Shown piece by piece: positions 27,980-31,367 of a stretch of DNA of 37,932 bases. Each line of letters opens with the position of its first letter. The stretch's first letter is position 1. The position numbers were made by a program, and so were the translations under genes. The stretch is from Rhodospirillales bacterium (lineage in GTDB: Bacteria > Pseudomonadota > Alphaproteobacteria > BOG-932 > Roseiterribacteraceae), in contig JAQGIE010000041.1 of assembly GCA_028291365.1 (NCBI GenBank), positions 1 to 37,932 on the forward strand. The letters are read 5' to 3'. Under the pieces are notes generated by a model. It saw only the letters and a program-made list of their open reading frames with translations. It did no database searches and was not told the origin of the DNA.

Positions 27980-31367
<3,388 letters not shown>

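Follow-up and report, generated by a model that had tools for sequence, protein, structure and literature searches.

In nonsense pseudogenes of bacterial genomes, a gene that is otherwise conserved is interrupted by one in-frame stop. The gene described here lies in a window of 37,932 nucleotides, the whole stretch of DNA that was analysed (contig JAQGIE010000041.1 of the Rhodospirillales assembly GCA_028291365.1). It resembles these pseudogenes in its one in-frame stop, but differs in that clear further decay is absent, and its stop is read from a draft assembly. A literature search on premature stops and pseudogenes in TonB-dependent receptors gave, by title, nothing on this gene. FoxA, FhuA and YncD/PqqU, which are TonB-dependent transporters, were among the top PDB matches of the structural model predicted for the intact sister protein. 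The last phenylalanine of bacterial barrel proteins has a crucial role in membrane integration, as stated in an excerpt of PMC3596097. The sister protein comes from Roseiterribacter gracilis TMPK1, a soil isolate according to an excerpt of PMC11164329 that also mentions two related metagenome-assembled genomes.

An interrupted TonB-dependent receptor gene

The sequence-only reading had placed an in-frame amber codon within NAGAQR-TAG-EGFELETHW, with 559 codons before it and 153 after it up to a terminal KWQF, and had assigned both halves to one receptor. Our analysis bears this out: the minus strand reads exactly so at 28444-28442, the counts are exact when taken from the TTG start, and the halves match consecutive parts of the barrel profile and form a single genome-wide match containing one TAG (Table 1). 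The pre-stop count of 559 varies with the start chosen, because the longest ATG-started frame (start 30211) gives a pre-stop part of 589 aa; the stretch after the TTG resembles a signal peptide by eye. No second stop was found in the receptor frame, which is otherwise open. A continuous frame that closes on an aromatic residue is lacking, since the TAG stands at codon 560 and the Phe lies beyond it.

The domain matches identify the gene as an ordinary TonB-dependent outer-membrane receptor. The N-terminal plug (PF07715) scored 78.5 bits against a cut-off of 23.9, and the barrel (PF00593) scored above its curated cut-off, the pre-stop half covering profile positions 9-324 and the post-stop half 327-436. 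The best-scoring NCBI model was the siderophore receptor subfamily TIGR01783, but the gene is split by the stop and scores under the curated cut-off, and even the intact sister protein reached 209.5 bits against 223.5; the substrate is therefore left without assignment. Identity to the TMPK1 protein is 89% before the stop and 83% after it, with omega values of 0.10 and 0.17 and dS values of 0.65 and 0.62, respectively. An in-frame continuation of 153 codons with this identity and omega is evidently not due to chance.

The structural model of the intact TMPK1 protein has a mean pLDDT of 60, which rises to 83 in the segment surrounding the site. Manual counting gave 22 barrel strands, a provisional number because the mean pLDDT is only 60, and the site corresponds to residue 555, inside strand 16 (546-564). 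According to this model, the truncated product would break off within strand 16 and lack strands 17-22 as well as the terminal Phe. This agrees with the earlier proposal that the last barrel strands and the terminal Phe assembly signal are lost, since the stop falls inside strand 16 of 22 in a sister model of moderate confidence. Function is probably lost, because these strands and the terminal Phe are missing and the latter is crucial for integration in the excerpt of PMC3596097.

Table 1. Features of the interrupted receptor gene and of its surroundings (window positions).
Feature	Position	Strand	Details
TonB-dependent receptor gene, interrupted	27980..30121	(-)	TTG start 30121 to TGA 27982-27980; Pfam plug and barrel; intact sister ortholog
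In-frame amber codon TAG	28442..28444	(-)	codon 560 counted from TTG 30121
Pre-stop part, 559 codons	28445..30121	(-)	likely signal peptide, plug, strands 1-15 and start of strand 16 (sister-model numbering)
Post-stop part, 153 codons and terminal TGA	27980..28441	(-)	rest of strand 16, strands 17-22, terminal Phe
FAD-dependent glycerol-3-phosphate dehydrogenase-like gene and FGGY (glycerol-kinase-like) gene	24949-27977	(-) and (+)	longest ORFs overlap at 5' ends (26520-26637)
Oligopeptide-type ABC transporter genes	32981-36561	(-)	two ATPases and two permeases
6S RNA	11848-12005	(+)	63.5 bits, gathering 46.4

In the neighbourhood, the stop of the FGGY kinase gene lies 2 bases from the final stop of the receptor gene, and the two genes are convergent. 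The 6S RNA was the only Rfam family found in the window at the gathering threshold, so that the window holds no known riboswitch at that threshold.

The site in intact orthologs

The closest relative, R. gracilis TMPK1 (L029, BOPV01000001.1), carries an intact ortholog at the same position in a collinear region: the window aligns with it in 14 blocks of one order and orientation, with gaps between them. The TMPK1 ortholog has a serine where the window has the stop, and its frame is open through to ...RWRF. The serine codon is one base away from the amber codon. Two genomes of the genus were compared, that of the window and one that is very probably that of TMPK1, and the gene is intact in the latter. 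In a class-wide draw of 385 genomes, matches reached E 1e-30 or better in 4, two of them from the genus and two from another family; within that other family, matches at E 1e-60 or better were found in 21 of 82 genomes. The alignment comprised the window, the sister and 20 of these 21 outgroups, with L196 omitted, whose match spans query residues 29-254 only.

Across the 21 intact orthologs, namely the sister and the 20 outgroups, the stop column holds Ser in 20 and Val in one, and the C-terminal Phe is reached in all. Tyr occurs at the column in none of them, which refutes the earlier statement that receptors normally have Tyr at this point. The accompanying claim, that a single substitution explains the stop, stands insofar as the sister codon is one base off, but not for an ancestral TAC or TAT, since the column is Ser/Val. 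A stop at the amber site was found in none of the 21 aligned orthologs, and the disabling lesion is thus absent from intact relatives, as in a pseudogene. The alignment to relatives that had been suggested gave a clear answer: all 21 run past the codon and none ends there.

A probable nonsense substitution or a possible sequence error

We favor a recent nonsense substitution in an ordinary TonB-dependent receptor gene, to which we assign a probability of about 0.6. A single nonsense substitution would have produced the TAG inside the receptor frame, and translation would end at codon 560. The truncated barrel, with about 15.5 of 22 strands and no C-terminal signal, would fail to assemble in the outer membrane and would be degraded, leaving a young pseudogene, perhaps confined to the sequenced strain or population. 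Loss of one receptor is tolerable, since the genome has some 50 receptor matches. TAG is the stop most readily reached by one change in the receptor gene, as 105 of the 179 stop-making single-base changes yield it. If the 153 codons after the stop were unconstrained, a rough calculation predicts 0.5 further stops when this state covers a tenth of the branch that follows the TMPK1 split, and 2.4 when it covers half. No further stops are seen there; therefore, the stop, if real, is probably young.

Alternatively, the stop may have arisen in assembly or base calling, or the consensus may have taken up a minority variant; this is a substantial though lesser possibility, and living cells would then carry an intact receptor. 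The draft state of the assembly (271 contigs), the constraint on the pre-stop part (omega 0.10) and the lack of a second stop in frame are consistent with such an error. In contrast, the rarity of stops elsewhere argues against it. We compared the window with the sister over all frames of at least 100 codons with omega below 0.45 after removal of overlaps (34 frames, 11,779 aligned codons), scoring premature stops and not frameshifts. A window stop was seen in 6 of the 34 frames, and the focal receptor was the sole recognised gene interrupted; four of the other five frames have the stop upstream of a usable start, and one has it at codon 93 of 115, in a short frame at 2970-3314. Stops were also rare in other families of this genome, occurring inside 0 of 52 plug matches and 1 of 82 ABC ATPase matches, and the focal receptor alone had one among the 54 barrel matches.

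One ABC ATPase match of this genome (G000:C151:14104-14504, minus strand) is split in two overlapping pieces, one with a TGA, and may be a second broken gene or reflect an error of assembly. When four genomes of the family were compared, barrel matches with an internal stop numbered 1 of 54, 0 of 46, 0 of 48 and 1 of 38, or 2 of 186 together. The receptor barrel at G003:C5:37771-39021, from a genome of this family, is interrupted by one TGA and one TAA. Broken receptors, though uncommon, are ordinary. A literature search combining metagenome-assembled genomes, pseudogenes, internal stop codons and sequencing errors returned nothing.

Lineage-specific change is, moreover, weakly in excess beyond the stop, which speaks against a sequence error. 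At columns at least 70% conserved in the 20 outgroups, the window lineage showed changes at 5 of 84 post-stop vs 2 of 315 pre-stop columns (Fisher p = 0.005), and the sister lineage at 2 of 84 vs 6 of 315 (p = 0.68). The corresponding p values for window and sister were 0.004 and 0.085 at a 50% conservation threshold, and 0.026 and 1.0 at 90%; the direct contrast between window and sister at the columns of at least 70% conservation gave p = 0.13. With the 20 outgroups, branch lengths before and after the stop were 0.022 and 0.141 for the window, and 0.088 and 0.087 for the sister. Of 100 random column sets, 1 had a window branch as long as that after the stop, and 12 showed an equally large window-minus-sister difference. 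In 65 of 100 bootstraps, the post-stop branch was longer for the window than for the sister. Sliding windows over the pre-stop part were erratic, with a window branch of 0 over most of the first half and of up to 0.134 in the last (columns 361-518 of 537). Profile scores of window vs sister residues did not differ significantly (permutation P 0.09), and no decay was seen in the pre-stop part. The excess of lineage-specific change, a weak and noisy signal, hints that the stop is real. Taken together, the error-level and constraint tests suggest a slight lean to a real stop.

Pairwise dN/dS (omega 0.103 before and 0.166 after the stop) was dropped as evidence of relaxation, because other receptor ortholog pairs show an equal spread. 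In this dN control, 48 loci of this genome were compared with 30 of the 46 sister barrel matches, and 13 of the 16 reciprocal pairs were kept. The pairs dropped were the focal pre-stop fragment (L007_2/L115_0) and two pairs in other reading frames whose earlier part gave an omega >1 (L003_2/L114_0 and L146_5/L119_1). The ratio of C-terminal to earlier dN ranged from 0.10 to 2.15 in the controls (n=13). The focal ratio was 1.79 without the signal peptide, which 2 of the 13 controls exceeded, and 1.54 (0.1034/0.067) with it, which 4 of 13 exceeded.

Read-through and other possible roles of the stop

It is improbable that the amber codon is read through, by a suppressor tRNA, recoding or leaky termination, so that some full-length receptor is made. 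The 153 post-stop codons are still coding-like (omega 0.17, GC3 0.84), but a very young pseudogene would look alike. The sequence-only reading had offered read-through as an option and an amber-suppressor tRNA as its mark; our analysis gave no support for either. The CUA anticodon was absent from the 44 tRNA genes found in the genome, a set that is incomplete, since isoleucine (GAU) and alanine (UGC) tRNAs are missing from it. Release factor RF1 (TIGR00019) is present above its cut-off, and TAG is a normal terminator here: among 28 likely window genes, hand-picked and including the final stop of the receptor, the terminal codon is TAG in 6, TGA in 15 and TAA in 7. Conserved recoding is contradicted by the aligned orthologs, since none of the 21 carries a stop at the site. 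An alternative genetic code or suppressor tRNA was rejected on the tRNA set, the presence of RF1 and the routine use of TAG. Literature matches on bacterial stop codon readthrough with TonB-dependent receptors were, by title, off this question.

A more speculative reading, to which we give very little weight, is that the amber codon serves as a population-level off switch, retained because it shields cells from a receptor-binding phage or toxin, and that it reverts, or is read through in part, once the nutrient is required. The constraint before the stop, together with the recognisable part after it, would then point to recent or recurrent switching. Least probable of all is a role for the truncated product of 559 codons in its own right, such as that of a decoy or a regulatory plug domain: the pre-stop part is still constrained on the window lineage (branch 0.022 vs 0.088 in the sister), but a very recent stop would yield an identical pattern, none of the 21 aligned relatives ends here, and a product ending within a barrel strand without the C-terminal signal would, judging from the sister model, hardly be stable.

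An ordinary nonsense interruption or a sequence error is most likely, rather than a new mechanism. The locus also calls for caution in annotation, as two fragments or a truncated receptor would be called here and one base decides. If the nonsense substitution is real, the gene would be a single young receptor pseudogene, among dozens of such receptors, in soil bacteria of small cell size and of a little-known lineage, and could reflect a lost nutrient niche, or escape from a phage using the receptor.
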